Source: Acinetobacter sp. YWS30-1 (GTDB taxonomy: Bacteria; Pseudomonadota; Gammaproteobacteria; Pseudomonadales; Moraxellaceae). From it: a stretch of DNA of 64,000 nucleotides. Below are positions 1 through 19,509 of the stretch, one piece after another. The stretch spans positions 744,001 to 808,000 of the forward strand of contig NZ_CP114606.1 in NCBI RefSeq assembly GCF_033558715.1. Reading direction: 5' to 3'. A program made the position numbers and the translations under genes. How positions within the stretch are numbered: the first letter of the stretch is position 1; every line of letters begins with the position of its first letter. The notes beneath the pieces are model-generated. The model had not been told where the DNA came from, made no database searches, and worked only from the letters and a program-made list of their open reading frames with translations.

Positions 1-24
1 AAATTAATAATTGAGTGTTTAAAA

Positions 25-987
25 ATGAAAAATTCAATGAAAAGAATTGCTGTATTTATTGTATTGGCTGGGATGTTAGGACATGTATCAGCGGCATCTA
101 ATGAGCAAATACCGCAAGACGTTAAAGTTAAACTGGTGGAACTTGAAAAAATAAACAGACAAACACTAGAGAAATTTGACCAGTTTAAAACAGATAGTCT
201 TAAACAACAAAAAGCTTTAACAGTAAAAATTAGTGAACAAGACAAACAGCATCAACTGGAAATTAAAAAGTTAAATGAAAATATTGGCATTTTAGAAAAT
301 AGATTACAGGAAAGCATCAAAGCTCAACAACAAACTGTAGATCAGCTCAATCAGCTTGATAAAACAACAGCACAAACTACGGCAACAATTTATGACAGCA
401 TTACTGCACGCACGATAGCTGCTTTGATTGGACTTATTTTTGCTGTGGGTTTAATTGCGGCAAGTTATCTTTTACTTCGTAAGAAGCAATCACAATCGAA
501 TGAAGATCTATCATCTCAGGTGAAGTTAGCGTTGGATAATGTGCGGCAAACTGAAGAAAATATTGTGAAGTCTGATATCCAACTTGCTGACCGTTTACAT
601 GAAGTATTAACTCAGTTAAAAGAACAAGCGAAGATAGTCCCAGTAGTTCAACAAAATAATGAACCGGATCATAGTTTGCCTTTAAAACTCGCAGATGAAA
701 TTCATCGTATGCGTAAACGTCTTGCAGCACTTCCTGAAGATACAAAAGGGTTGAAGCCACTAAGCAAGTCGTTAGAGCGTTTAGAAGATGAATTATCTGA
801 GCAAGGTTATGAAATTATTGATCATACAGGTATGGAATTCAGTGAGAATTTATCAATTCAATCACGATTCATTCCAAGTGATGATCTAGAACAAGGTCAA
901 AGTATTATTTCTAAAGTTGTTACGCCTCAAGTAAATTTCAAAGGTGTAATGATTCGTATGGCAGATGTAGAAGTCAGTGTGGGTTAA
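25..987 (+). CDS. Membrane-anchored protein with GrpE-like C-terminus
   Basis: 320 aa. The N-terminus looks like a signal peptide (hydrophobic core about 7-20, VSA cleavage-like site near 23), followed by a charged coiled-coil region (about 30-125), a transmembrane helix (about 130-150, ending LLLRKK) and a long cytoplasmic tail. The last 60 residues (261-320) follow the layout of the GrpE beta domain: an opening GYEII, a middle G before the MEF segment, and a closing MIRMADVEV that resembles the GrpE ending LRPAMV(x)V. The next gene, 12 bp downstream, encodes an Hsp70, the natural partner of GrpE. I infer a membrane-tethered nucleotide exchange factor with a periplasmic coiled coil. ATG at 37 is an alternative start. 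The family is not one I recognise by name, and the operon may begin upstream of the window. Confidence 0.6.
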   Translation: MKNSMKRIAVFIVLAGMLGHVSAASNEQIPQDVKVKLVELEKINRQTLEKFDQFKTDSLKQQKALTVKISEQDKQHQLEIKKLNENIGILENRLQESIKAQQQTVDQLNQLDKTTAQTTATIYDSITARTIAALIGLIFAVGLIAASYLLLRKKQSQSNEDLSSQVKLALDNVRQTEENIVKSDIQLADRLHEVLTQLKEQAKIVPVVQQNNEPDHSLPLKLADEIHRMRKRLAALPEDTKGLKPLSKSLERLEDELSEQGYEIIDHTGMEFSENLSIQSRFIPSDDLEQGQSIISKVVTPQVNFKGVMIRMADVEVSVG

Positions 988-999
988 GGAACTATAAAA

Positions 1000-3519
1000 A
1001 TGCGTCAAAAAATTGATTACGGTATTGATCTAGGTACTACGAATTCAGCAATTGCTCGGATGGAAGATGGTGAAGCAGTAATTATAAAAAGTGATGATAA
1101 TCAAATGGACACTACCTCATCAATTGTTTCTTTTAATAAAAAGCAAACAATTTTTGTAGGGTTGAGTGCAAAAAATGCGTTAGAACGAGAAGCAGCTTCA
1201 AATTTCCGGAATAGAAAGCAAATTGAGCCTAATGGCTATCAAGAATTTAAACGTACAATGGGAACAGACCATCAGTATGCGTCTTCTAATATGCATAGAA
1301 CATATTCTTCAGAAGAGTTGTCTGCGGAAGTATTAAAAAAACTGAAAGGTTATATCCGTGATGAAGAAATTATCTCTGCTGTTATTACAGTTCCTGCAAT
1401 GTTTAGACAGAGTCAATTAGATGCAACACAGAGGGCAGCTGAATTAGCGGGTTTTAATTATTGTGAATTATTACAAGAGCCGATTGCTGCTTCAATTGCC
1501 TACGGTATGAAAGCAAACAATGCAAATGGGTATTGGTTGGTATTCGACTTCGGTGGAGGAACTTTTGATGCAGCATTAATGCATGTTGAAGAAGGGATAA
1601 TGAAAGTAGTAGATACCGAAGGTGATAACCATCTTGGTGGTAAAAATTTGGATAATGCTATTGTCGATCAGTTATTAATTCCAGAATTAGAAAAACAATG
1701 TGAATTAAATGATACTCTCGAAAATGGAAGTACTAAAAAACTACTTCAAGATGCATTAAAAAAATATGCTGAAGAAGCAAAAATCACTTTATCTTCCAAA
1801 GAAAAATGGGGACATTTCCTTGAAGACCTAGGTGAAGATGATGATGGAGAAGAAATTCAAGCGGATCTCGATATTAGTTTAGAGCAGTATGAAAAAGTAT
1901 GTGTTCCAATTTTTCAGCGTGCAATCGATATTGTTAAAAATGTATTATCGCGTAATAACTTAAGTGGCCAAGATTTAGAGTCACTGATTTTAGTTGGGGG
2001 GCCAACTTTCCAGCAAACATTACGTAGAATGTTGAAAGAGCAAATCACCGAGAAGATAGATACTAGTATTGATCCAATGACAGCGGTTGCAAAAGGAGCT
2101 GCTTTATTTGCTTCAACAAAAGACATCCCTCGTGAATTACAAAAACGCGATAGTTCAAAAGCTCAGTTAAGTTTGAAATATCCAGAAACGACTGTAGAAA
2201 CCCAGGAAAATTTAGGGATACGTATCGATCGTGAACAATCAACAGCGAATTTACCCGCTACTTTTACTTTAGAAATCATTCGCGGAGATAGTGGTTGGTC
2301 TTCTGGTAAGGTGTTAGTTGAAGGCGATGTAGAAATTATAGAATTAATGTTGAATGAAGGAAAAACCAACCAATTTAATATTAAGCTCTCTGGTCCAGAT
2401 GGTTCGAATATTCCGTGTGAGCCAAACTCAATTACCATTATTCAGGGTATGAAAATTGCCAATGCAACACTGCCATATCACGTTGGTATTGAAGTTTACG
2501 ATACGGTAGATAATAAGCAAGGTGTATATCCTTTATCCGGACTAGAAAAAAATAAGACACTGCCAGCAAAAGGTAAAGGTTCTTTCAAAACCATGAAAGA
2601 TATACGTCCAGGTCTTAAGGAAGATCAGATTCTAATTCCAATATATGAGTTAAGTCGTGGAAATGATGGATCACGGGCAATTCTAAATACTTTTTTTGGT
2701 AAATTTGCTATAACAGGCCAAGATATTTCAGCTTTCCTTCCAGCAGGTAGCGATGTTGAAGTTACTTTAAATATTGATGCATCACGTCGTGGTAAGCTGT
2801 CGGTGTATCTACCTGCATTAGATGAAAGCTTTGATGTTGTGATTGAAACCACAATTGAAAAAGATATTAAAAAAGAAGAATTACAAAAAGAGATTGTGGT
2901 AGCAAAATCTACTGCACAACGTCTTGCTAATGAAGGGAGTTCAGAAGCTGAGAAGCAGCTTGTACAGTTGGATGAGGCTGAACAAGTGTTAAATGAACGA
3001 GGTCATGAGCGTTCTAGTAAAGAGGAAGTAAAAGCTAAACTTCAAGACTCCTTAATTGAATTGGATAAGCAAGAAGCAGAAGGCGAGTGGCCAAAAGTGA
3101 AGCAAGAGCTTCAAGAGGCACTGAACGATTTAATCATGCAAAATAAACGATATGGCAATGCTCAGACAAATCGCATCGTTGAAGAGTCAGAAGAGCATGT
3201 ACGTCAAGTAATTGCTGCTAGAGATATTCAGTCTGCGAAGAAGTTAACGGACCAATTATCATCAATGGCTTTTGAGCTACAGGGGCAAGATATTAGTTTC
3301 TGGGTAGGCGCTGTATATTATTTAGATGAGTGTTTTGAGGATATTAAATGGACAAATCGCTCAGAAGCCTATCGTGGAGTACAGAATCTCAAACAACTAC
3401 TCAATATGAACCCTAATAAAGATCGACTTGAGCAAGCTGTATGGGAAGTTGTGCAATTGATGAGTCCTGAAAGTAAAGCGGCTATGCAGAATGTAAATAG
3501 TGATCTGTTGAGACGTTGA
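1000..3519 (+). CDS. Divergent Hsp70 (DnaK-like) chaperone, 839 aa
   Basis: The Hsp70 nucleotide-binding domain fills about residues 1-385: phosphate-1 motif GIDLGTTNS, phosphate-2 motif FDFGGGTFD and adenosine motif LILVGGPTF. A region resembling the substrate-binding beta domain (ILIPIYELSRG through VTLNIDASRRG) lies near 545-610, so about 150 residues separate it from the ATPase domain where DnaK has only a short linker. A long helical, charged tail (about 630-839) replaces the normal lid. At 839 aa it is about 200 aa longer than DnaK and lacks dnaJ as neighbour. It is sandwiched 12 bp after the GrpE-like gene and 7 bp before the kinase-AAA gene, so the three are probably one transcript. 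It is likely a dedicated chaperone of this locus rather than the housekeeping DnaK. Confidence 0.88.
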   Translation: MRQKIDYGIDLGTTNSAIARMEDGEAVIIKSDDNQMDTTSSIVSFNKKQTIFVGLSAKNALEREAASNFRNRKQIEPNGYQEFKRTMGTDHQYASSNMHRTYSSEELSAEVLKKLKGYIRDEEIISAVITVPAMFRQSQLDATQRAAELAGFNYCELLQEPIAASIAYGMKANNANGYWLVFDFGGGTFDAALMHVEEGIMKVVDTEGDNHLGGKNLDNAIVDQLLIPELEKQCELNDTLENGSTKKLLQDALKKYAEEAKITLSSKEKWGHFLEDLGEDDDGEEIQADLDISLEQYEKVCVPIFQRAIDIVKNVLSRNNLSGQDLESLILVGGPTFQQTLRRMLKEQITEKIDTSIDPMTAVAKGAALFASTKDIPRELQKRDSSKAQLSLKYPETTVETQENLGIRIDREQSTANLPATFTLEIIRGDSGWSSGKVLVEGDVEIIELMLNEGKTNQFNIKLSGPDGSNIPCEPNSITIIQGMKIANATLPYHVGIEVYDTVDNKQGVYPLSGLEKNKTLPAKGKGSFKTMKDIRPGLKEDQILIPIYELSRGNDGSRAILNTFFGKFAITGQDISAFLPAGSDVEVTLNIDASRRGKLSVYLPALDESFDVVIETTIEKDIKKEELQKEIVVAKSTAQRLANEGSSEAEKQLVQLDEAEQVLNERGHERSSKEEVKAKLQDSLIELDKQEAEGEWPKVKQELQEALNDLIMQNKRYGNAQTNRIVEESEEHVRQVIAARDIQSAKKLTDQLSSMAFELQGQDISFWVGAVYYLDECFEDIKWTNRSEAYRGVQNLKQLLNMNPNKDRLEQAVWEVVQLMSPESKAAMQNVNSDLLRR

Positions 3520-3526
3520 GGTTAAG

Positions 3527-5239
3527 ATGACACGAGTCGGTACATTTCCAAAAGAATCTATTATTGCTAATCGATATCAAGTACAAACATATCTTGGTGA
3601 GCATGATTGCTGTGAAGTGTACCGCGTCGTTGATATTGAAACTTGTGACCTGAAGTTACTTAAAATTATTCAAAATAAACAGCTCCCAAGTATAGATTTA
3701 GATTTATTAGAAAAAACCTTACTTAAATATTCGAAATTACGACATCAAAATTTGATAATTCAATCTGAATTGAAAAATTTTATTGATAATCAAATAACAT
3801 ATTACTATTTTCTTAATAATTATATTTCAGGTGAACCACTCGAAGATTTATTAAGACGAAAACTTAAATTAAGTATATTTGAGAGTTCAGAAATTTTATT
3901 TCCAATTTTGGACACATTAGATTATTTGCATTCACAGAAAATAATGCACAAAAATATTAATCCTAGTTATATATACTTAGATTATAGTTTAAATAAAATT
4001 AATAGTTTTTTATGTTTGGTTAAAGTTAGTGAATTTAGTTCAGAAGAAGCTAAAAAAATTTACTTGGCATACCAATCTAATAACCGTCTTTTTAAAAAGA
4101 ATTATATTGGAAACGACGTTTTTTCATGGATGATTATATTTTATAAATCTATTACAGGTGTTCAACCATGGAATTATGATATTGATTGGGAAATTGACGA
4201 TATTATTTCAATTAGGCAGCGTATAGAACTTCATAGAGCTAGCTATTCATCAACCCCTTTATCTTTTTATGAAAGCACCTATGAAAAGGTAGATAATGTT
4301 TTTAAAATAGTTTTCGATAAAAATTGCCAAAATTTATTTTTAAATTTTCAAGAATTAAAATCAGATTTAATATCTGGATTTAATTTGGATTCTAAGTATC
4401 AGTTTTTAAAGATGATAAATAAAAAAGAATCTAACGCTAATTTTCAAATCAAAAATAGTAAGATCGAGAATAAAAAAGGATTACAGAAAATTGCTGGTAT
4501 GGATGATCTAAAACAACAGTTAGATATAGATGTTATTCAACCTTTAATCCAAAAGGATAAATATCAAAAATATGGAGTGGAACCATTAACCGGTATACTA
4601 CTTTATGGGCCTCCAGGTTGTGGTAAAACATTTATTGCACAATGTCTAGCAGAGGAAATAGGTTATTCATATTTTGAAATTAAACCATCTGACTTAGCTA
4701 GTGTATATATACATGGTACACAAGAAAAGATAGCTAAGTTGTTTAGAAAAGCGGAAGAGAGTAATCCTTCGCTTATTTTTATTGATGAAATTGATGCATT
4801 ATTACCTAACCGAAGTCAGGAAAATTTGACTCACCATTACGCAAGTGAAGTGAATGAGTTTTTATCACAAATAACAAATTGCGGTGAGAAGGGTATTCTT
4901 GTGATTGGAGCCACAAATCGCCCCAAAGCTATAGATCCTGCGATGTTAAGAACAGGACGATTAGAAAAGCATATTTATATAGATTTTCCAGACTTTAATG
5001 CTCGATTGGGAATGCTAAAACAGTATTTAGAAAATAGACCTTGTTCTGATGATTTGGATTTGTTCAACTTAGCTATATTAATGGTTGGTTATACTTCTAG
5101 CGATCTCAGATATATAGTAAATGAGACTGCTAAATTAGCATTAAAGGAAGATTGTCAGATTAACGATATATTCTTTAAAACGATCATTGAGAAGTATAAA
5201 CCATCTGTAAGAAATGATGATAGGTTCAGTCAGTTTTAA
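3527..5239 (+). CDS. Degenerate Ser/Thr kinase-like domain fused to AAA+ ATPase
   Basis: 570 aa. Residues about 15-270 have the outline of a eukaryotic-type protein kinase (NRYQVQTYLGE start, LDYLHSQKIMHKNINPSYI catalytic-loop region). The key residues are changed: HRD reads HKN, no DFG is seen (SEF lies at the expected place) and the glycine loop is eroded, so this half is probably a pseudokinase. Residues about 325-565 are a Cdc48/FtsH-type AAA+ module: Walker A GPPGCGKT near 361, Walker B LIFIDEID near 417, sensor/arginine-finger region ATNRP and LRTGRLEK. It follows the Hsp70 gene by 7 bp. I infer an ATP-driven remodeller whose N-terminal domain binds a partner or substrate rather than phosphorylating it. 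The gene is very AT-rich, as expected for acquired DNA. Confidence 0.85.
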   Translation: MTRVGTFPKESIIANRYQVQTYLGEHDCCEVYRVVDIETCDLKLLKIIQNKQLPSIDLDLLEKTLLKYSKLRHQNLIIQSELKNFIDNQITYYYFLNNYISGEPLEDLLRRKLKLSIFESSEILFPILDTLDYLHSQKIMHKNINPSYIYLDYSLNKINSFLCLVKVSEFSSEEAKKIYLAYQSNNRLFKKNYIGNDVFSWMIIFYKSITGVQPWNYDIDWEIDDIISIRQRIELHRASYSSTPLSFYESTYEKVDNVFKIVFDKNCQNLFLNFQELKSDLISGFNLDSKYQFLKMINKKESNANFQIKNSKIENKKGLQKIAGMDDLKQQLDIDVIQPLIQKDKYQKYGVEPLTGILLYGPPGCGKTFIAQCLAEEIGYSYFEIKPSDLASVYIHGTQEKIAKLFRKAEESNPSLIFIDEIDALLPNRSQENLTHHYASEVNEFLSQITNCGEKGILVIGATNRPKAIDPAMLRTGRLEKHIYIDFPDFNARLGMLKQYLENRPCSDDLDLFNLAILMVGYTSSDLRYIVNETAKLALKEDCQINDIFFKTIIEKYKPSVRNDDRFSQF

Positions 5240-5240
5240 A

Positions 5241-5278
5241 AATAATAGATAGTTTGATATTACAAACTATCTATTATT
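5241..5278. terminator. Bidirectional terminator between convergent genes
   Basis: A perfect 16-bp stem (5241-5256 with 5263-5278) closes a 6-nt loop just after the kinase-AAA stop codon and before the 3' end of the convergent 115-aa gene. The stem is A/T-rich at its base, giving A and T tracts on either strand. Confidence 0.75.
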
Positions 5279-5286
5279 ACTATTAA

Positions 5287-5634
5287 TTATTTTATCAGTC
5301 TATCAATACTGTCTCTGAGTCCATCTGCGCTGCGGCCTTCTTCGAGACTGATTTTTTCACGTAGTCTTGTGAGAGCCCGTTTTGCGTCTTCATCATTTCT
5401 TAATAGTTCACGAGCTTTATATTGATTTTGGTTATTTATGGCTGCTAAAGCTAAAGCTCGGTTACTTGCATTACTACGTTCTGAAGTATTATTTTGCTTA
5501 TAGAAATCAATAAGTCTACTTTCTGATGCGCGCTCCATTTTATCCCATTGCTCAAGCTGCTTTTTTGTTACAGCATCAGTCATTGCCTTTCCTGCAGCTT
5601 TTCCTGCACTTACTAAAGAATCAAAAAAACCCAT
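5287..5634 (-). CDS. Small helical hypothetical protein
   Basis: 115 aa starting MGFFDSLVSAGKAAGKAM, a short amphipathic or weakly hydrophobic segment with small residues spaced like a glycine zipper, followed by a charged, predominantly helical body rich in E, K, R and N. No known family recognised. An ATG preceded by AAGGAG (reading the minus strand, about 5640-5645) makes the start convincing. It lies 165 bp downstream of the 475-aa glycine-zipper gene on the same strand and ends against the terminator of the Hsp70/AAA operon, so it belongs to the same accessory cluster. It could be a substrate, adaptor or immunity partner; nothing in the sequence decides between these. Confidence 0.6.
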   Translation of the reverse strand: MGFFDSLVSAGKAAGKAMTDAVTKKQLEQWDKMERASESRLIDFYKQNNTSERSNASNRALALAAINNQNQYKARELLRNDEDAKRALTRLREKISLEEGRSADGLRDSIDRLIK

Positions 5635-5799
5635 AATTACTCCTTATTTCATAGTTAATTGAATTTTATTTTTTAATAAAATTATCAACTTAATTTAACT
5701 TTAGATCCCATTTCAATCAAGTAATTTTGTTGAAAAATATATATTAAAATTTGCGGTTTTTTTACCTTAGTTCATTTACTTTGCATATGTCTAATTGTT

Positions 5800-7227
5800 T
5801 TAGTCAAACAAAAAACTTTGTAAATCATTTTCATTTTTCAATATTTTTGATTCTTCGACTCCATAAGCACGAGCTAACATAATACTGGACTCTACAATTG
5901 AAATATTTGTACTCAAGTCAAAAGCTTTACTTCTTAAATCAGCAATTTTTTCAAATTCAGTATTAATTTTATTTATGACATTTATATAAACTTCATCAAC
6001 CTTAGCTACAAAAAGTTGCATGGAAGCTTCCATCTTCTGTGCTAGCTTTTTATCTTCACCTAATAAAATTTCACATACAAACTTTCCTGCGATTGAACCA
6101 ATGACAGCGCCTAAGACTGGTATAGGGATAAATGTTTGTCCTGCTAGGGCAGCAAGACCAACACCTGCGCTATCAGCACAAACAAAAATTGAATTCATTT
6201 GAAACTCTTCGAAAGTTAATTTCCCTTGGTAAAAGTCATGTACTAATGAGCTTACCCCTTTTGATGCGGTAACAAATGCACCGGCTAAGGGGGCAGCTAA
6301 CCCCGCACAATTAGTCAAACTATAAACTGCAGCACCAGTTACACCTGCTAATGCGGATGCTTTAGCTGTATCTAATCCAACTTCTTTCCAGTCTTCTTTA
6401 GTTAGCTCGCCCTTAAATAAATTTTTTCCTTCATTTTTATATTTAAGATATAAAGAGGAACTCAAGGCAATAGCACCACCAACAGCTGCTGCAGCTCCAG
6501 CTGCTTTTAGCCCTTCTGTTAAGTTGGCTTGATGTTTATCGTGAATAATGTCTTTCAGTTTTTCATTTTGTTGTTCTAGGTCAACACTGTGCTTATTTAA
6601 TGTTTCATGCACTTGTCCTTGTTGAACTTCAGCATAATCAGATACCCCAGGACGAACCACCTCATTAAATGGCTGTCCAGACTTGGTTTGGATTTCTTCA
6701 ATTTTTGCTTGAACAGAATTGATAGTCTTTTGACTTAAACCTTCAATAGATTCACCGCGATGAATTTTAGAAATCAATTCATAATGATCTTTTGGAATAT
6801 GATAATAAGATCCGTCACGACCAAAGTTTTCATACTTGTCCATGTGTTTGAGCACATGATCAAGGTTGTTACGCAAACCATTAATAAATTTTGATTGAAC
6901 CTGAATCCCATCAATCAAATAATCTTCGGGCGCAGTGCGTCCCACTCCTTCAAAGGTAGCTCTGACTGTATCACCTGCAAGAGCATCTCTTGCATTACGA
7001 ATACCTACTTCGACTTGTTCTGCAATTTCTCCATGTTTAGTAAGATCGCTACCTAAAATATTTTCAGGTGTTCCAATAAACTCTCGAACTTGATCAACAT
7101 GCTTCATTGAATTAATAAAGCATTGATCCTGCAAATTAAGTTGAGTAATTTCGTCGTGCAGTCGAGCAACATTAATGCCATCGACTATGGCACTAGAAAT
7201 CTGGTCTTGTACTGAAGTTGTTTGCAT
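5800..7227 (-). CDS. Glycine-zipper membrane protein with possible PD-(D/E)xK-like region
   Basis: 475 aa. Residues about 50-160 hold a conserved-looking block: GSDLTKHGEIAEQ, then EDYLIDGIQVQSKFING. The D-x3-QxK arrangement plus an upstream helix glutamate resembles the QxK variant of PD-(D/E)xK nucleases, but I cannot prove this by eye. The second half (about 235-390) contains several A/G-rich hydrophobic segments with glycine-zipper spacing (AAGAAAAVGGAIALSSS, ALAGVTGAAVYSL, IPIPVLGAVIGSIAGKF), typical of membrane-inserting or pore-like proteins. The C-terminus is helical. It is 26 bp downstream of another glycine-zipper gene, probably co-transcribed, and converges on the Hsp70/AAA operon. 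Candidate effector of the cluster. Confidence 0.6.
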   Translation of the reverse strand: MQTTSVQDQISSAIVDGINVARLHDEITQLNLQDQCFINSMKHVDQVREFIGTPENILGSDLTKHGEIAEQVEVGIRNARDALAGDTVRATFEGVGRTAPEDYLIDGIQVQSKFINGLRNNLDHVLKHMDKYENFGRDGSYYHIPKDHYELISKIHRGESIEGLSQKTINSVQAKIEEIQTKSGQPFNEVVRPGVSDYAEVQQGQVHETLNKHSVDLEQQNEKLKDIIHDKHQANLTEGLKAAGAAAAVGGAIALSSSLYLKYKNEGKNLFKGELTKEDWKEVGLDTAKASALAGVTGAAVYSLTNCAGLAAPLAGAFVTASKGVSSLVHDFYQGKLTFEEFQMNSIFVCADSAGVGLAALAGQTFIPIPVLGAVIGSIAGKFVCEILLGEDKKLAQKMEASMQLFVAKVDEVYINVINKINTEFEKIADLRSKAFDLSTNISIVESSIMLARAYGVEESKILKNENDLQSFLFD

Positions 7228-7253
7228 TAATATTGCCTGATGATTTAATTAAA

Positions 7254-8108
7254 TTAGAGCTCAACTTTCTTTTTCATAAGTAGACATAAGCTCTCTACAT
7301 GATTTTTCAATGAAATCATAAGTGCTTTTTGGCCGCCATCTAGTTGATTATAATCAAGTGTGGTGAGTGTTGAATCTAGCGTTCTTAATTGAGATTGCAT
7401 CCCCACAATATGCTTCTGTGTCTCTTCCGTAAGTTTTTCCACTTCTAAGGACGCGGCTTTAAATTGTCTATTTAGAACTTCGATTTCCTTTCTTTTTTCA
7501 TCAGCTTCTTTAGCAATTTTCTCATTTCTACTGCGTGCAAAAAGTGCACTTCCGACTAATGCTGTACCACCAATTGCCCAGCCTACTGGTCCTGCAAGTG
7601 CCAATAAAGCATTACCTGCAGCCATACCACCACCACCTGCAGCAAGAGCTCCTCCACCTAACCAAGCTAATGCAGCATTAGTAGCTGCAGCACCACCTAA
7701 TGCAGAAATGGCCGTGCCCGTAGATGCTGTGCCAAAAGTAGTTGCAATGGCCATAGCTGCAGTAGGTGCAAATGCAGCAACTCCAGCGCCAGCAGCAACT
7801 CCAGCTCCCGCAGTGCTACCAGCTTGTAGGTCGACCAAGCGAGCATTTTCTCGAATCTTCTCTAAGATGTCGCTAAAGACTTTAAATTCAGCTTTGTATT
7901 CAGTAAATGTTTTATCAAATTCTTTAGGCTTATTCGCAATTGCACTAAATAGAGCCTCAATTTTTGAAATAATTTTGTGGGCATCATTTTTTCTGAGATT
8001 CATTAACTTTTCAGACTTTGAACCTACTTCTTGCCCTAGGTCTTCATAAATCTTTTTAGCATTTTCAAATTTATCGATAGCATTTTTTTTTAAATCACCG
8101 TTTAACAT
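7254..8108 (-). CDS. Glycine-zipper hypothetical protein
   Basis: 284 aa in three parts: an N-terminal coiled coil (about 1-90), a long Ala/Gly-rich hydrophobic centre (about 95-195) including NAALAWLGGGALAAGGGG and GPVGWAIGGTALVGSALFA, and a C-terminal coiled coil (about 195-284). The LAWLGGG(x)LAAGGGGMA motif recurs in many uncharacterised bacterial proteins of defence-like neighbourhoods; I know no assigned biochemical function. The architecture suits reversible membrane insertion with helical flanks controlling it. First gene of the minus-strand operon, 26 bp before the 475-aa gene; its promoter lies in 8109-8433, shared divergently with the 621-aa gene. Confidence 0.65.
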   Translation of the reverse strand: MLNGDLKKNAIDKFENAKKIYEDLGQEVGSKSEKLMNLRKNDAHKIISKIEALFSAIANKPKEFDKTFTEYKAEFKVFSDILEKIRENARLVDLQAGSTAGAGVAAGAGVAAFAPTAAMAIATTFGTASTGTAISALGGAAATNAALAWLGGGALAAGGGGMAAGNALLALAGPVGWAIGGTALVGSALFARSRNEKIAKEADEKRKEIEVLNRQFKAASLEVEKLTEETQKHIVGMQSQLRTLDSTLTTLDYNQLDGGQKALMISLKNHVESLCLLMKKKVEL

Positions 8109-8433
8109 TTTGTACCCTTACATATTTATGTGATTTTTGTGAAGTCTGTTTTATATATATTATTATTTTTTATCAGAATTGTAATTCAATATTTTTTTAA
8201 TATTCACATTTTGGCTTGTTGACAAAAAGTTTTAGTTTGCCTATGCTTCAAATGAGCAATCATGCTTAGGTTGAGTTTTAGCCTGCGGTTAAGAGTTCAT
8301 ACTCTCTTAAACAAAAAAACCTCATCTTATATTCTTAAATAAGACCAAATCCGTTATTTCGTAAGTATGTCTCTAAATCAAAAGATTTAGTTGAAGGCTT
8401 TTTATTTCCTGTCGAAATATAACGGATGTTAAT
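8109..8433. promoter_or_regulatory. Divergent promoter region with structured leader
   Basis: 325 bp without a gene between two divergent genes. On the plus strand the last 85 bases can fold: CTAAATC (8373-8379) pairs with GATTTAG (8384-8390) around a 4-nt AAAA loop, and CCGTTATTTCG (8351-8361) can pair with CGAAATATAACGG (8413-8425) with a 2-nt bulge. The outer 3' arm contains the only purine-rich stretch (ACGGA, about 8422-8426) at ribosome-binding distance from the ATG at 8434. The fold would mask it; that part is inference. Confidence 0.45.
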
Positions 8434-10299
8434 ATGTTAAAAGCATTTTCTAAAAGACATTTTTTTACCCAATTACCTGTTGTGGGTTATTTACCTCTTA
8501 AAAAATTTCATATTCTGCCAATATTTGGTTTAGAACCTAAATTAATTAAACAATCGGTTGACAGCGTAGCTCGCGATCGTGAAAAAATAGGTCATTGCAC
8601 GCTCTTAAATGCTCTTGTTCATTCATTGGGTTTTAAAGGTGGTTTTTCAGGATTTTTGGATGCCTATGAGCAAATCCTAAAACCTTTTATGGAAGACCAT
8701 AACTTAAGCCAATATGCGGATTTGATTGAGCCAAGGTTTCCATGTGATGGAGCAAGTCGTTTAAAACATCAACGTCAAGATGTATCTGATCGACTGTTTT
8801 ATAGCGATAGCCCTATTCCAGACAAAATTTTTACAGGATATAACTTTCGTTATGATCAATACTTCGATGATGGTATAGGTATCTACAATTTTGAAATTGA
8901 TCATTCTGATTATGGATTACATCAGAACCCCTATGATGAAAATGATTCATCAAATGTAGATGTAGCTCTTCAAAACCCTACATTAGAAGTACCTCTGAAG
9001 CGTAAACAGCCAAATACGAGATCACTGATTGATATCGTGATTGGTGGAGATTTATTTTATATCCAGGCTGGTTTCAACCTGCTTGGAGATCAGCTGATTC
9101 AACCTAGGGAAAAAGAGCTAGTTTTTCAAATTTATAATAACAATGAATCAGCTTTAGAAAAATGTCTGATACATTGTAATAAAAAGATGAACTTGTTTAT
9201 TCAGCGCATTGAGGAAGTCAATCAAGGTTGGATTGAAGTAATCCCTTTTAATGAAAATCTTATTTTTTTAAAAGGTGAAAAAGGTGAATATGACTTCCTT
9301 TTTAAAAATCAACGTGATGAAGAATTTAAACATCAAATTTACGAACCGTACTTGAAAAGAGCTGACGTACCTAAATTTGATGATGAATATCATTTTAAGC
9401 GTTGGTTCTACTTTGAATTTAAGGGAAATAGGCAACAGCAGTCACATCAAGCAGAAACAGAGTATTATTTTTCTGGTGGTAAAGCATGTGACTATCCTGG
9501 CACAGAAGAGTTATTAAAACGCTCTTTGTATATTGATTATGCCAAAACACTCGTAGATTTGGGCTCTTCTATTGAATTGCCAAAATTTCAAAAGATTAGG
9601 TTAGAAAATGGCAAATGCTTGATGGTCTCAGATTTAATCCCAATTGAAGACTTTCAGGAATTTTTAATTTCAAACCCATTGTACTTAGAAGGTAGAGCGG
9701 ATGTTTTTGAGCAAGAAGGTTTGCTTGATAATCTAGAATCAGTAAATGCTGATGAAGATACGTCGTTGCCTGTATCATTGACTTGGTATGATGTAATGGC
9801 ATTTATCAGTTGGTTTAATCGGAAGAATAAAGTCGAGAGCCGCTTATTAACTTATGATGAGTTTATAGAGGTTTCCCCCTTTTCTGAAAAGATCGATGAT
9901 GATTCGGGATTGAGTTTTTATTCGCCACCTTTAAACAGAACTTTTAATGGAGAAACATCTTTTATAGGTCAACCTAATGAAGAGTTCGAATACAACTGTC
10001 TGAGTTTTTATGATGAAAATGGAGACAAGATTTTTGGTCATCCACCTTATATGAAGGAAAAATCTTTCCAAAAAATTCAATTGAAATTTGAAGATGTGAA
10101 ATACTTAGAAAAGCACGAACTTAGATTTATTGATTCCAAAAATTTTGGAGAATGGTTAAATAATAAAACTTGTGTTTGTTGTAAAACATTAACGGGATTT
10201 TATAACTATATTGCCAAACCAACTCCAGTATTGGATTCTACAGGTAAATATAAAGGTAGAAAAACTGGCTTTAGACTTTGCTATGAATTAAAAGATTAA
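8434..10299 (+). CDS. Large hypothetical protein with C-terminal FGE/sulfatase-modifying-like domain
   Basis: 621 aa. The N-terminal 400 residues match no family I recognise. The C-terminal part (about 400-621) has marks of the formylglycine-generating enzyme (SUMF1) fold: LTWYDVMAFISWFN followed by RLLTYDEF (compare the usual VsWydAxaFcxWl...RLPTEaEWE) and the closing KTGFRLCYEL (compare GFRxv). CVCC near residue 586 is present, but whether it corresponds to the catalytic cysteines of true FGE is unclear. Such domains also serve as carbohydrate-binding or variable-recognition folds without enzyme activity. Divergent from the glycine-zipper operon and closed by its own terminator, it is probably part of the same accessory cluster. 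Confidence 0.6.
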   Translation: MLKAFSKRHFFTQLPVVGYLPLKKFHILPIFGLEPKLIKQSVDSVARDREKIGHCTLLNALVHSLGFKGGFSGFLDAYEQILKPFMEDHNLSQYADLIEPRFPCDGASRLKHQRQDVSDRLFYSDSPIPDKIFTGYNFRYDQYFDDGIGIYNFEIDHSDYGLHQNPYDENDSSNVDVALQNPTLEVPLKRKQPNTRSLIDIVIGGDLFYIQAGFNLLGDQLIQPREKELVFQIYNNNESALEKCLIHCNKKMNLFIQRIEEVNQGWIEVIPFNENLIFLKGEKGEYDFLFKNQRDEEFKHQIYEPYLKRADVPKFDDEYHFKRWFYFEFKGNRQQQSHQAETEYYFSGGKACDYPGTEELLKRSLYIDYAKTLVDLGSSIELPKFQKIRLENGKCLMVSDLIPIEDFQEFLISNPLYLEGRADVFEQEGLLDNLESVNADEDTSLPVSLTWYDVMAFISWFNRKNKVESRLLTYDEFIEVSPFSEKIDDDSGLSFYSPPLNRTFNGETSFIGQPNEEFEYNCLSFYDENGDKIFGHPPYMKEKSFQKIQLKFEDVKYLEKHELRFIDSKNFGEWLNNKTCVCCKTLTGFYNYIAKPTPVLDSTGKYKGRKTGFRLCYELKD

Positions 10300-10308
10300 A
10301 GCTATTAA

Positions 10309-10337
10309 ATATGGGCAAGTAAGTAACTTGCCCATAT
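10309..10337 (+). terminator. Terminator after the FGE-like gene
   Basis: A 12-bp perfect stem (10309-10320 with 10326-10337, arm ATATGGGCAAGT) with a 5-nt loop lies 10 bases after the stop codon and is followed by a short T-rich tract. Confidence 0.75.
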
Positions 10338-10456
10338 TGTTATTAAGTCGTCAAAGGCTAAGTTTTTCAGTTGCTGAAGGAGCTATCGAACTCGGTGGCT
10401 ATTCAGGCTTGCCTACACCCAAAATTTGATATTTTTTGTGTACAAGCTGAGCTTCT

Positions 10457-11197
10457 TTAAAGACCTAAAATAACTTGATACGGTTTAAATCCTTCTAATA
10501 CAGCATCGGAAACTAGTTTGATAAAAGATTCTGTTTTTCCGAAAGCCATCCATTGATCCAATGCCTCATAATATGCCAATCGATTTTCAACTGTGATGAC
10601 ACAGGGTGGATAACCAGCTTTAAGCAATTCGAGGTTCATCAATAAGCGTGATGTACGACCATTCCCATCAATAAATGGATGAATGCCTACAAAGTCTGCA
10701 TGTACTTTAGCTGCACGTTCAATAGGATGTAGCTTATGTGCCTCAGTATTGTACCAATCGACAAGCTGAGCCATTTTATCATTCAACAGTGTATAGTCGG
10801 GTGGGTTAGTCGTAGCACCTGAAATCAACACGTTTTGTTGGCGATAACGTCCTGCATTGTCATCATCGATATTTTTTAGAATGAGTTGATGGATATTACG
10901 AATCTGCCATTCAGAAAAAGGTTCTTCTTTACGAATAATATCTTCAACATAATAGATCGCATTTCTATGGTTAATTGCCTCGAAATGTTCTCGTAATGCT
11001 TTTCCACCAACGGTAATGCCTTCCAAAACCACTTTTGTTTCTAGCAATGTCAGTGTATTGCCTTCAATTGCATTTGAATGATATGTCCAGCGAACAATAA
11101 GATCTTCTTGTAGATTTTTTACAATTGCAGGAGAAAGAGGACGATGCTGATCTAATTTTGTTTTTAAAGCATCTATATTGTCAAACATAACTTTCAC
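10457..11197 (-). CDS. Fic family protein (probable AMP transferase), class II
   Basis: 246 aa. The Fic catalytic motif HPFIDGNGRTSR is intact (His, the acidic residue and both Arg present). An N-terminal inhibitory-helix motif, SNAIEGN, precedes it in the same chain, which marks a class II self-inhibited Fic protein in which the Glu blocks the ATP site. Family members usually transfer AMP to a hydroxyl of a target protein; the target here is unknown. No antitoxin gene adjoins it, consistent with intramolecular inhibition. The start is MKVMFDN; the internal ATG at codon 4 is an alternative. A perfect 26-bp palindrome about 46 bp upstream suggests transcriptional control. Unlike many Fic proteins it shows no obvious extra C-terminal DNA-binding domain. 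Confidence 0.88.
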   Translation of the reverse strand: MKVMFDNIDALKTKLDQHRPLSPAIVKNLQEDLIVRWTYHSNAIEGNTLTLLETKVVLEGITVGGKALREHFEAINHRNAIYYVEDIIRKEEPFSEWQIRNIHQLILKNIDDDNAGRYRQQNVLISGATTNPPDYTLLNDKMAQLVDWYNTEAHKLHPIERAAKVHADFVGIHPFIDGNGRTSRLLMNLELLKAGYPPCVITVENRLAYYEALDQWMAFGKTESFIKLVSDAVLEGFKPYQVILGL

Positions 11198-11968: not shown

Positions 11969-13007
11969 GGCTTTGTTGCACAAAGATTTGAAATGCAAAG
12001 CGCCCCTAATTGATCCAAATTTAAGGCGTAACTTGGGTAAGTGGGCGACCTAATTCCGTAAATCTGTTAAGGACTGCTACACGTGCATGGATCTCATTCA
12101 CCTGACTAGGAAAGCTTCTTGCCATTAATTTATCGCCTAATAATTTGATGCAATGCATCTTGGTTTCCACCAAACTGCGGCGATGATAGCCTGACCATTT
12201 TTTCCATAATGTCCTGCCTAAATGTTTAACTGTTCGAAGTAATTCATTTCGCTCTAGCGAGCTACTCTTTGTATCTTTCCATGGTTTCGCATTTTTTCTA
12301 GGTGGAATCACCGCATGCGCTTGCCGATCTGCAATGACCTGACGGCATTGCTTGGTGTCATAAGCTCCATCGGTATAAACAGAGTCAATCTGCTCATCTT
12401 GTGGAATCTGATTAAGTAAATCACCAAGCACCTGTGAATCACTGACATTATTGGTTGTGAGCTGAATAGCGCGTATTTGTAGGGTTTTGGCATCTATACC
12501 AATATGTAGTTTACGCCATTGGCGACGATATTCAGCTCCATGTTTCTTGCGTTTCCATTCGCCCTCACCTAGAAACTTCATGCCTGTAGAGTCTACGAGT
12601 AGATGCAGCCCATCGCTACTTTTTTGGTAGCTGATTGCAATATCAATATGCTTTTGTCTTCTACAAAGCGTACTGTAATCTGGTGCGGTCCAATTTAATC
12701 CGCAAAGTTTAATCAGACTTTGCACAAAGCCAGTGACCATACGTAAAGACAAACGGAATAGAGATTTAATCATTAAGCAGCATTGGATAGCTGCGTCGGA
12801 GTAGGTTTGATTTCGCCCTTGTTTGCCTTTTGATGGAGCATACCATTGCGTAGCAGGATCAAACCAAATGGCAATATTTCCGCGACTCATGAGTGCTCGG
12901 TTATATGCGGGCCAATTGGTTGTGCGGTAGATTTTGTGTGTAGGCTTCTTCATTTGAAAATTATATCGCTGAAAAAGCCTTTACAGATAGGTTTGTGCAA
13001 CAAAGCC
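11969..13007 (-). mobile_element. IS5-family (IS903/IS17-like group) insertion sequence
   Basis: 1039 bp bounded by perfect 16-bp inverted repeats, GGCTTTGTTGCACAAA (11969-11984) and its complement (12992-13007), enclosing a full transposase gene. The 9-bp flanks (GTGAAATGG and AATAAATAT) do not match, so the expected 9-bp target duplication is missing. An insertion-adjacent deletion that removed most of the host IS explains this. Confidence 0.88.
12021..12953 (-). CDS. IS5-family transposase (DDE)
   Basis: 310 aa, full length for the IS903-like group. The DDE domain is visible: LLVDSTGMKF carries the first Asp, VYTDGAYDTKQCR the second, and RSLVETKMHC the Glu with the usual downstream K. 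The N-terminal DUF4096-like region (NRALMSRGNIAIWFD) is typical of this group in Acinetobacter (IS17-like). It catalyses cut-and-paste movement of the surrounding 1039-bp element. No frameshift or internal stop is seen, so the element may be active. Confidence 0.9.
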   Translation of the reverse strand: MKKPTHKIYRTTNWPAYNRALMSRGNIAIWFDPATQWYAPSKGKQGRNQTYSDAAIQCCLMIKSLFRLSLRMVTGFVQSLIKLCGLNWTAPDYSTLCRRQKHIDIAISYQKSSDGLHLLVDSTGMKFLGEGEWKRKKHGAEYRRQWRKLHIGIDAKTLQIRAIQLTTNNVSDSQVLGDLLNQIPQDEQIDSVYTDGAYDTKQCRQVIADRQAHAVIPPRKNAKPWKDTKSSSLERNELLRTVKHLGRTLWKKWSGYHRRSLVETKMHCIKLLGDKLMARSFPSQVNEIHARVAVLNRFTELGRPLTQVTP

Positions 13008-13446: not shown

Positions 13447-13777
13447 CACATTTACCACATTTACCACATTTACCACATTTACCACATTTACCACATTTAC
13501 CACATTTACCACATTTACCACATTTACCACATTTACCACATTTACCACATTTACCACATTTACCACATTTACCACATTTACCACATTTACCACATTTACC
13601 ACATTTACCACATTTACCACATTTACCACATTTACCACATTTACCACATTTACCACATTTACCACATTTACCACATTTACCACATTTACCACATTTACCA
13701 CATTTACCACATTTACCACATTTACCACATTTACCACATTTACCACATTTACCGCATTTACCGCATTTACCACATTT
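13447..13777. repeat. 9-bp tandem array (CACATTTAC), 36 full copies plus a partial
   Basis: 34 identical CACATTTAC units run without a break, followed by two CGCATTTAC units and a 7-base partial unit. The array keeps all six frames largely open, creating long but meaningless repetitive ORFs (Thr-Phe-Thr, Pro-His-Leu, Asn-Val-Val). The near-perfect identity means recent expansion. It lies about 260 bp before the helicase start. The rest of 13314-14033 holds no gene I can support. Confidence 0.97.
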
Positions 13778-16658: not shown

Positions 16659-19509
16659 GTGTTCAATAATTTCTTTACAAAAACGGTTTTATCAGTAGCA
16701 ATAACCTCCATTTTAATTGGTTGTGGTGGTGGCGGAGGTAATTCTGCATCAAATGGTCCAAATGTAACCACACCACCAGTGGGTGGGGTTGAGAATCCAG
16801 ATACAGGCACTGGTTCAGATACAGGTACTGGTTCAGGTGATAAAGAACCAACTACAACTCCTGAACAAGATTATGTGTATAAGAAAGAAAACTTTAATGT
16901 TGTAGAACCTGATACATCTGCAAATAAAGTGAAAGTTGGTGTTATCGACTCTGGCGTTCGAAAAAATGATATTTTAGAGCATGCAGTTAAAAAAGTTTAT
17001 AAATACATTGAAGATTATGAAGCAGGTGAGATCACTGTTACCGATCTCACAAACGCAGGAATTGATATTCAGGATTTAAGTATTAACAATCACGGTACTT
17101 TAGTTGCAAGCGTTATTGCTGCTAAGTCAAATGGTGATCCAGAGTACGAAAATATTCCTGAGGGTGCTGCTAAAGATATTGCTGAAATCTATGGCGCACG
17201 CACTTCAGATCAAAATGGTGGTCTGGGCTATACATCAGGTGCTCTCCTTGCTATGCAAGACTTGCATGATAAGCATGGTGTGAAATTGTTTAATGGTTCA
17301 TTTGGGACACGTACTGCCGAAACTGAATACAAGAAAACACTTACTAAATATGCAATGAATTTGGCCGATGGTGGTTCATTGATTGTTTTCTCAACAGGTA
17401 ATGATGGTTCTTCTACGCCTAATATTGAAGCCTTGCTTCCAACCTTCGTTGGGGGGGGAGGGTATTGAGAAGGGGCTTTTAGCTGTAACTGGTCTAGATT
17501 CTACCAAAAAAGCTCTTTACCGTGCAAAAGATGGTACGGGTGCAAATGCGTGTGGGGATGCTGCTCGCTGGTGTATTGCTGCTGATTATGAAGTTCCTGT
17601 TTATAGCGAAAATTTAAATGGTAATGCTGTTTTTGTAGGTACATCTGCATCTGCACCTCAAATTACTGCATTGGCTGCTCAAATCTGGTCTAAATATCCT
17701 TGGATGACAGCCGATCAAGTGCGTCAAACTATTTTGACTACTGCTGATTATGTTGATGATGGTTCAGGCCAAAAATTATTTAATAAAACTTTTGGTTGGG
17801 GTTATTTTAATCAAGCTTCGGCTTTGAAAGGCCCTGAAATGTTCAGCCAAATTTTTGGTGAAACTTTTAATGCGGAAGTTAATTCAGGTCTAGCTATTTT
17901 CTCTAACAACATCACTGGTGATGCAGGGTTAGTAAAAGGCGGTAAGGGTACATTGGTACTAAGTGGCAACAATACTTTCTTTGGCAATACTGTTGTAAGT
18001 GATGGTGAATTGCGTGTGAATGGCAGTATTGAATCTCCATTAACTGCTGTATATAGCACAGGTTTATTAACAGGTGCTGGTAAGGTTGGTGCTGTTGATA
18101 ATGGTGGTACTGTTTCAACGGAAAAAGGTCGCTTAACTATCGCTGGTGACTACAATCAGTATGAGCAAGCAAAATTAGTGTATGGCTTGGAACACTATTT
18201 AACTGTTACTGGTGTTGCTAATCTAGATGGTGCGTTAGAAGTTACTGCTCAAGATCAAAAAATGGTTACTGCTGGTAAACATGATGTAATTAAAGCAGGT
18301 TCTATTACAGGTGATTTTGATACGGTTACTGCTAAGAGTGCATTCTTGCAAGTCGGTGAAACCACTAAGGATGCTAATACTTATTCAGTAGATGTTCAGT
18401 TAAAAGATGCTAAAGTAGCAGGTACTTTGAACGGTGGTCTGTCTAATGCTTCTGGTGATTTAGTTAACCAACTTATGGCTAAAGCGAATGCGCAAGCTGT
18501 GAATGGTGAATCAACTGAATTAACCAGCTATGTAGCGAAAGTACAGCAAGCGGTGACTGCTGAGCAAGCACAAGCTGTCTTGAATACTAATGCGGGGGCG
18601 TTATTTGCGGAAACACCATCTGTATTATTGCACAACGATGCAATGACCAATGCGCAAGTCGCTCAACGTGCATTCCAAGTATCTAAACAAGGTGTAACAG
18701 GTGCGTGGGTAAATGGCGCTTATCAGGAGACTTCTACAAAAGCTAAAGGATGGGATAAGGTTGATTCAGAAATCTCAACTTTGACCGCTGGTTCGGATTT
18801 CCAAGTGGCTGATAATGCGATTTTAGGTGCTTATGTTTCAACTTACAAAGATGACTCTAAGTTTTCAGAATCAAATGGTACAAGTGAAACTGACCTGACT
18901 ACCTTTGGTGTTTATGGTAAATGGAATACCGCATCAGACTTGTATTTCGCAGCTAATGCTCAATATGGTTTTGGTGATGTTGAATTTAAACGTAGCGTAA
19001 CAAACGGTGTGGATTCAGAGCAAAGCAATGCTAAATCTGATTTAGATAAGTATGGTGTATACGGTGAAGTAGGTTATAGCTTCATTAACAATCAATGGTC
19101 TGTATCCCCATATGCTGCACTAAGCTTTAACAGTGTTACTTTGGACAAGGTTAATGAATCTAGTGAAATGGGTGTTACTGTTGATGATGTAACAGCTAAA
19201 GAAAATAAACTGCACGTAGGTGTTCGATTCGACTATCAAGTTACTAAAAACTTGGCGCTAGGTGGTTATGGTGAATATGCTAATGCGGTAGATCGCTCTT
19301 TACCAAATGTTAGCTTGGCATCAAACGTAGATAATACTGTTGGTGTGAGCTACCAAGCACCTGCTTACGACAAGGATTACTTCTTGTATGGCATTACATT
19401 CAACTATCTAACAAACAACTCTAAATGGAATATGTTTGGTGATGTAGCAGGAAATGCGAAAAATTCTGATGATATACAAGCTCAATTAGGGCTTAAGTAT
19501 ATGTTTTAA
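16659..19509 (+). CDS. Subtilisin-like (S8) autotransporter lipoprotein, out of frame at a G8 tract
   Basis: From a GTG at 16659 (GGGG-rich ribosome site just upstream) the first frame gives a lipoprotein signal (VAITSILIGC, lipobox Cys) and a subtilase domain: catalytic Asp in VGVIDSGV, His in NNHGTLVAS. It stops at 17468 soon after eight G (17451-17458). The rest continues in the next frame: catalytic Ser in GTSASAPQ, an autotransporter-type passenger repeat (GGKGTLVLSGNNTF), and a beta-barrel domain ending in Phe (LGLKYMF). With seven G the protein reads through (PTFVGGEGIEKG) at about 950 aa. Layout and repeat-tract control resemble NalP, a phase-variable lipoprotein protease autotransporter of Neisseria that cleaves surface proteins. 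As sequenced it is OFF, or broken, or a sequencing miscount. Confidence 0.85.
17451..17458 (+). repeat. G8 homopolymer at the frameshift (contingency-type tract)
   Basis: Eight consecutive G inside the subtilase coding region; losing one restores the frame exactly. Flanking bases are GTT and AGGG. The position, between catalytic His and Ser codons, makes any out-of-frame product inactive. Confidence 0.8.

Follow-up and report, generated by a model that had tools for sequence, protein, structure and literature searches.

A four-gene Hsp70/AAA+ operon of Acinetobacter sp. YWS30-1 with a predicted role in anti-phage defense at the inner membrane

Organization of the J-A-B-C operon

At the left end of a 64,000-nucleotide stretch of DNA from Acinetobacter sp. 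YWS30-1 (contig NZ_CP114606.1, positions 744,001 to 808,000; hereafter the window, meaning the whole stretch that was analyzed) lies a plus-strand operon of four genes, here called J, A, B, and C. Three of these are visible in the window at 25-5239 with the spacing described in an earlier note made from the letters alone: A (25-987; 320 amino acids, aa), B (1000-3519; 839 aa), and C (3527-5239; 570 aa), separated by gaps of 12 bp (A/B) and 7 bp (B/C). The gene that opens the operon, J, codes for 547 aa and lies upstream of the window start at genome coordinate 744001, all but its last 7 bases (window 1-7; genome 742364-744007; locus L005:14364-16007), and its stop codon is 17 bases from the start of A. 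The note had placed the genes in AT-rich accessory DNA, and the G+C content is indeed 0.339 across 25-5239, compared with 0.39 for the window, with a transposase gene (12021-12953, minus strand) and a Fic gene (10457-11197, minus strand) nearby. Upstream of J are type I restriction-modification (RM) genes and a YgjP-like gene. Plasmid records gave no megablast match to window DNA 1-10400.

B and C encode an Hsp70 and a pseudokinase-AAA+ protein

Gene B codes for an Hsp70 in which PF00012 covers residues 8-372 (E = 2.3e-74) and the ATPase motifs, aligned with those of DnaK and HscA of the same genome, are intact; an insertion separates the nucleotide-binding and substrate-binding parts. All six B proteins have a glutamate at the position of the J-docking arginine, and the arginine is kept in DnaK and HscA of the same genome. 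We take this site to be that of Arg167 of DnaK (R167), which docks J domains.

Gene C fuses a kinase-like half (about residues 1-310; Pkinase, E = 3.6e-15) to a single AAA domain (residues 357-486; AAA, E = 1.7e-35). In the AAA+ half of the window protein the Walker A, Walker B, sensor 1, and arginine finger motifs are all intact; in the other half HKN and SEF replace HRD and DFG, and judged by these motifs the kinase half is dead. The Pfam domains of B and C and the lost kinase motifs bear out the Hsp70 and the pseudokinase-AAA+ fusion recognized previously. Motifs were also counted in the 111 relatives of C that are of suitable length among 120 listed. The Walker A lysine and the Walker B DE are present in all 111, whereas HRD and DFG persist together in 50, are gone together in 58, and are mixed in three. 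Over five loci, identity to window C is 21-53% in the kinase half and 44-79% in the AAA half.

Two named candidates for C were rejected. A disaggregase of the ClpB/Hsp104 type would have two AAA domains, not one, and the models for IetA of the IetAS system match the AAA half only (residues 320-558, E = 3.1e-30); no match to IetS was found among the seven proteins scanned.

A and J encode putative membrane-bound partners

The product of A has a hydrophobic N-terminus, a predicted periplasmic coiled coil, a transmembrane segment at about residues 125-153, cytosolic helices, and a GrpE-like head at residues 216-320. One transmembrane segment is found in each of the six A homologues, and the N-terminal hydrophobic segment is above the cut-off in two of them. 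Profile comparison of the A tail with GrpE by hhalign gives a probability of 84.7-84.9 and an E-value of about 6.5e-6 over about 100 columns, and the controls, consisting of three unrelated families and 20 column shuffles, reach a probability of at most 0.7. In searches with single sequences the Pfam GrpE model matches the homologue of A in locus L097 at 9.1e-4, short of the cut-off, and GrpE is not listed for window A at E 0.1. Judged by the profiles, the tail of A is homologous to GrpE, and nucleotide exchange activity is predicted; together with the transmembrane segment this agrees with the GrpE-like membrane anchor proposed in the earlier note. Comparison of the A profile with PDB gave coiled-coil chance matches only. 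Identity to window A over five loci is 16-64% in the periplasmic part and 40-98% in the GrpE-like head.

The J protein is built of a J-like N-terminus lacking the HPD motif, a helical-repeat middle, and a PspC-type membrane tail (PspC, E = 3.6e-12). HPD is present in none of the 120 J members listed; ExGK stands at that site in 118 of them, the other two being gapped, and a C-terminal hydrophobic segment is present in 113 of the 117 members of 490 aa or more. The J alignment (A2) does not include locus L095 because its J is split; at L095:6467-9026 a 289-aa open reading frame (ORF) of no assigned family sits between the two J ORFs.

Helices are predicted in the J N-terminus at residues 8-12, 20-35, 56-65, and 69-76. 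Comparison of this part with the J-domain by hhalign gives a probability of 23.7 over 24 columns, with 15 shuffles reaching at most 1.5, and there is no Pfam DnaJ match among the families shown for 29 J members. J-domain homology of the N-terminus is thus suggestive only, and we rejected the simple assignment of J as a plain J-domain protein, the HPD being missing and the fold poorly backed. The rest of J is modelled as helical repeats (predicted local distance difference test, pLDDT, 83.9). A Foldseek search of PDB with the J model returned no match at E≤0.001, and the VIA-align rows for the model span residues 83-468, leaving the J-like N-terminus outside, with Z in a range common for helical repeats.

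Distribution of J-A-B-C

A search of 249 genomes of the family with C as query (E≤1e-60) found matches in six, the window's own and five others (loci L093-L097). All five relatives have J-A-B-C in the same order and on the same strand, with J split in L095. The L093 and L094 islands are 99.9% identical to each other and therefore represent one transfer. Gene A is present in three of 175 genomes of the window's genus. A class search with a four-row J profile gave matches in five of 369 genomes. The match in the window's own genome is the sole genuine one over the full profile; the other four are to the PspC tail (three) or to the N-terminus (one).

The genes J, A, B, and C are also found, again with order and strand kept, on plasmid pHALHY02 of Haliscomenobacter hydrossis (Bacteroidota; L098). 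No other plasmid record has C or J at near full length, and in two more the match is confined to the AAA half. A TerB-family gene (L098:15525-16064; PF05099, E = 8.8e-6) directly follows C in this plasmid and is a possible fifth component there. Among viral contigs there are no relatives of A, J, or PDC-M09B (see below), and among phage records there is no J.

Relationship to described systems

We found no description of the J-A-B-C set in the open literature searched. The earlier note knew of no named system with this Hsp70 set, and none in the libraries or in that literature matches it; nor did the A-B-C trio turn out to belong to a known, different machine. We regard J-A-B-C as a variant of the Hsp70/AAA+ machine, and its nearest described relatives are the GAP1-N2 and CoCoNuT systems.

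With DnaK-DnaJ-GrpE and ClpB the operon shares an Hsp70 with intact ATPase motifs, GrpE-related and J-like partners, and an AAA+ motor. It differs from DnaK-DnaJ-GrpE in that A and J are membrane-bound by prediction, J is without HPD, and B has a glutamate at the docking site, and from ClpB in that C has one AAA+ domain and a kinase-like half where ClpB has two AAA+ domains; moreover, J-A-B-C is accessory and rare. The GAP1-N2 GTPase-centered predicted conflict systems, as described in PMC7159879, are marked by a TRAFAC GTPase with FNIII and GAP1 proteins. HSP70 and GrpE occur in about 14% of their neighborhoods, where the DnaJ domain is carried by an FNIII protein; they act near the membrane and are known mainly from actinobacteria and firmicutes. 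They resemble J-A-B-C in having HSP70 and GrpE parts near the membrane, whereas the Pfam matches of J-A-B-C show no GTPase or FNIII family, GAP1 was not found there, and the pseudokinase-AAA+ protein, set against that account, is found only here.

The sections of PMC11090510 on type III CoCoNuT systems report Hsp70-like proteins in predicted defense operons, often near type I RM or BREX. Those proteins are tied in these sections to McrB/McrC-like proteins and have degenerate ATP sites, whereas the ATP motifs of B are intact, and Pfam gives no match to a McrB-like GTPase or to CnuC/McrC in J, A, B, or C. A precedent for a chaperone partner in phage sensing is bNACHT25 with host DnaJ, although in the account of PMC12169576 that system borrows the host DnaJ and has a NACHT effector, without a dedicated Hsp70 set. 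The main text of a BREX survey (PMC12839542) leaves Hsp70 unmentioned.

Defense genes beside J-A-B-C

Several of the J-A-B-C loci adjoin defense genes. Type I RM genes lie beside the operon in the window's genome, PsyrT (1046.7 bits) and PsyrA (1.9e-173) adjoin J in L096, and L097 has a MkoC-like (Mokosh-like) protein matched over residues 4-780 of 1220 (7.5e-280). The neighbors in L093 are a ResIII-type helicase and a T5orf172 protein. According to the record annotation, the H. hydrossis operon has a SIR2-type gene on one side and BREX genes on the other; PADLOC gives no match for the SIR2 protein. The periplasmic part of A and the kinase half of C diverge fastest, as arms-race sensors would, and a sensor role is suggested because these outer parts change fast while the engine stays conserved.

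We propose that J-A-B-C is a private inner-membrane Hsp70/AAA+ machine, predicted to act against phages through AAA+ unfolding or dismantling of an invading protein complex, and give this proposal slightly better than an even chance. Several observations weigh against it. At the threshold used above C is found in one of 398 phylum genomes, and the J profile in one of 349 genomes, in each case the window's own. The 50 relatives of C that keep both kinase motifs were counted whatever their operon, the J-domain assignment is weak in the comparisons described above, and PADLOC has no family for J or B. The H. hydrossis J is missing ExGK and has no C-terminal transmembrane segment, and B of the same plasmid still has the glutamate. 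Adjacency to defense genes was counted without a matched random-locus baseline, and L095 has no recognized defense neighbor, the one neighbor scanned being lipoyl-synthase-like.

The surroundings of L095 also count in favor of a different explanation, in which J-A-B-C would be an accessory chaperone for quality control of the envelope or for stress tolerance, would refold or clear membrane-proximal proteins, and would be carried in islands as mobile cargo. All four parts are of chaperone type, the operon has no toxin or nuclease domain, and the PspC-type tail of J may be likened to the phage-shock-protein C of envelope stress. However, the patchy presence in the genus and the fast-evolving outer parts fit conflict better than housekeeping of this kind, as do the defense genes that adjoin several of the loci, and we regard a quality-control function as unlikely.

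The PDC-M09 pair and gene D

Three minus-strand genes face the operon: D (5287-5634), whose 115-aa helical product matches no family, E (5800-7227; 475 aa), and F (7254-8108; 284 aa), the partner of E, with glycine-rich hydrophobic segments. The glycine-zipper genes of the earlier note are therefore present, but they are not new families: PADLOC identifies E as PDC-M09B (PDLC04409, 3.6e-199) and F as PDC-M09A (PDLC04407, 1.6e-113), both near full length. In the literature 'PDC-M09' was found in no open paper.

A survey of M09 was made by scanning 84,980 species genomes, from which 80 of 113 M09 loci were kept, 51 of them with at least 5 kb of flanking DNA on each side. M09A lies beside M09B in 78 of these 80 loci from other genomes, and none of the 80 contains J, A, D, or G; any Hsp70 is present in one, and a distant generic AAA in five. 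PDC-M09 is a stand-alone pair and forms a neighboring module in the window. Likewise, in L095, L096, L097, and L098 nothing beside J-A-B-C matches D, E, F, or G. The genes A to G had been offered as one co-occurring set, but the seven do not recur together in other genomes, and because E/F and J-A-B-C each recur without the other we rejected a single seven-gene system.

The two modules are neighbors within the genus, where D-E-F lies beside J-A-B-C in all three genomes having A and D is found only in those three, which have both modules. M09B is present in six of 173 genus genomes (five of these 94% identical or more), and locus L007 of the same genus has Fic-F-E and not J-A-B-C. In genome G079, D and E are located beyond two inserted ORFs (20-kb stretch), and in L093 the stretch between D and C (6632-9073) has two ORFs of 396 and 410 aa on opposite strands, which are nearly identical and by eye look like transposase genes.

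This constant association, for a pair as infrequent in the genus as M09, is in keeping with the model of the earlier note, in which M09 would be under the control of the Hsp70/AAA+ set and would be held back or assembled by it as a membrane or nuclease effector. However, two of the three genus islands are those that are 99.9% identical, M09 occurs without J, A, D, or G in every one of the other 80 loci, so that the coupling fails as a general rule, and J-A-B-C is without M09 in L095-L098. The single M09 locus with an Hsp70 (L070:35-16490, a Bacteroides metagenome-assembled genome) has on one strand coiled-coil proteins, a double AAA protein, a Zn-ribbon-like coiled coil, two small proteins, a 544-aa Hsp70 (PF00012, E = 1.3e-62), M09A starting 40 bp after it, M09B, and a UvrD-like protein. 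The Hsp70 set linked to M09 in L070 is a different one; this locus counts in favor of the note's model, yet one Hsp70 near 80 loci is by our estimate about what proximity alone could give, and a by-eye likeness of the two small proteins to GrpE was not borne out (probabilities 0.4 and 0.3).

An effector role for M09B could also be read from its N-terminal part, in which H65-G66-E67, E70, E73, D102, Q111, and K113 are invariant in 121 of 121 sequences (HGE...E..E...D...QxK), yet comparison of the M09B model (pLDDT 72.8) with PDB gave no match at E≤0.001. Taking these points together, we consider control of M09 by the Hsp70/AAA+ set quite improbable. The residue set is like a D-QxK (Mrr-type) nuclease site by reading alone, and no search confirmed the likeness.

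Gene G, Fic, and other features of the island

Gene G (8434-10299, plus strand; 621 aa) is the divergent gene of the earlier note, but its designation there as FGE-like was made by eye only. G matches no Pfam family even at E 10, its best PDB sequence match (E 0.16) is not significant, and we rejected its assignment as an FGE-sulfatase-like protein. G sits between F and Fic in the window only, and it is an insertion here, since L093 and L094 have F and Fic directly adjacent, with no G. Counting the window's own, four of 249 genomes of the family have a homologue of G; two of these homologues (L127 and L128) are interrupted by in-frame stops and were set aside. Elsewhere in the genus, one G homologue is followed after 46 bases by a gene for viperin (pVip, 5.3e-88; L126:1495-4339), and G may be viperin-associated.

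The Fic gene codes for 246 aa (PF02661, E = 1.4e-23) and matches PDC-S04 and SoFic in PADLOC; it accompanies M09, also in L007. We read M09, G, and Fic, and presumably D, as neighbors of J-A-B-C in the island and not as parts of it, and the region reads as a stack of separate defense candidates.

Two further features lie beyond these genes. A tandem array at 13447-13777 consists of 36.8 copies of the 9-base unit CACATTTAC with 99% matches, and its three frames are all open. A subtilase-autotransporter gene at 16659-19509 extends over two overlapping ORFs in different frames and is broken or frameshifted.

Discussion

We have described here an operon whose gene order, Hsp70 and AAA+ motifs, decayed kinase, membrane segments, and GrpE homology in the tail of A can be read directly from the sequence. 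The location of the assembly at the membrane, the sensing, the client, and the defensive role are what we infer from these features, and the favored scheme of a private inner-membrane Hsp70/AAA+ machine would operate as follows. An event at the envelope, for example the adsorption of a phage or the entry of DNA, would be sensed by the periplasmic coiled coil of A, and the membrane-anchored J and A would bring the Hsp70 B to the inner face of the membrane and drive its cycle, with J standing in for DnaJ to load B and the head of A acting as the nucleotide exchange factor that resets it. B would then pass the client to C, where the kinase-like half may select it and the AAA+ half would unfold it by pulling. 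The libraries recognize no nuclease, pore, or NADase domain in the operon, and because there is no recognized killing enzyme we take unfolding itself, presumably of the phage entry complex, to be the attack.

In its most far-reaching form this scheme describes a new kind of innate immunity, which is possible, if doubtful. A second Hsp70 cycle would be nailed to the membrane. Its transmembrane exchange factor would detect the entry of a phage through the periplasmic coiled coil, its J/Hsp70 pair would be insulated, with the HPD replaced and the docking charge opposite, and its AAA+ unfoldase, guided by the pseudokinase, would destroy the incoming phage complex without a nuclease, pore, or suicide toxin.

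Splitting the locus into modules lets PDC-M09 and J-A-B-C be studied one by one. With its swapped interface, the J/Hsp70 pair would offer a natural case of insulated chaperones in which to study how Hsp70s choose their partners. If the scheme is true, protein unfolding joins cutting, modifying, and suicide among the ways to stop phages, and a transmembrane exchange factor by which Hsp70 signaling crosses a membrane would be new to chaperone biology.

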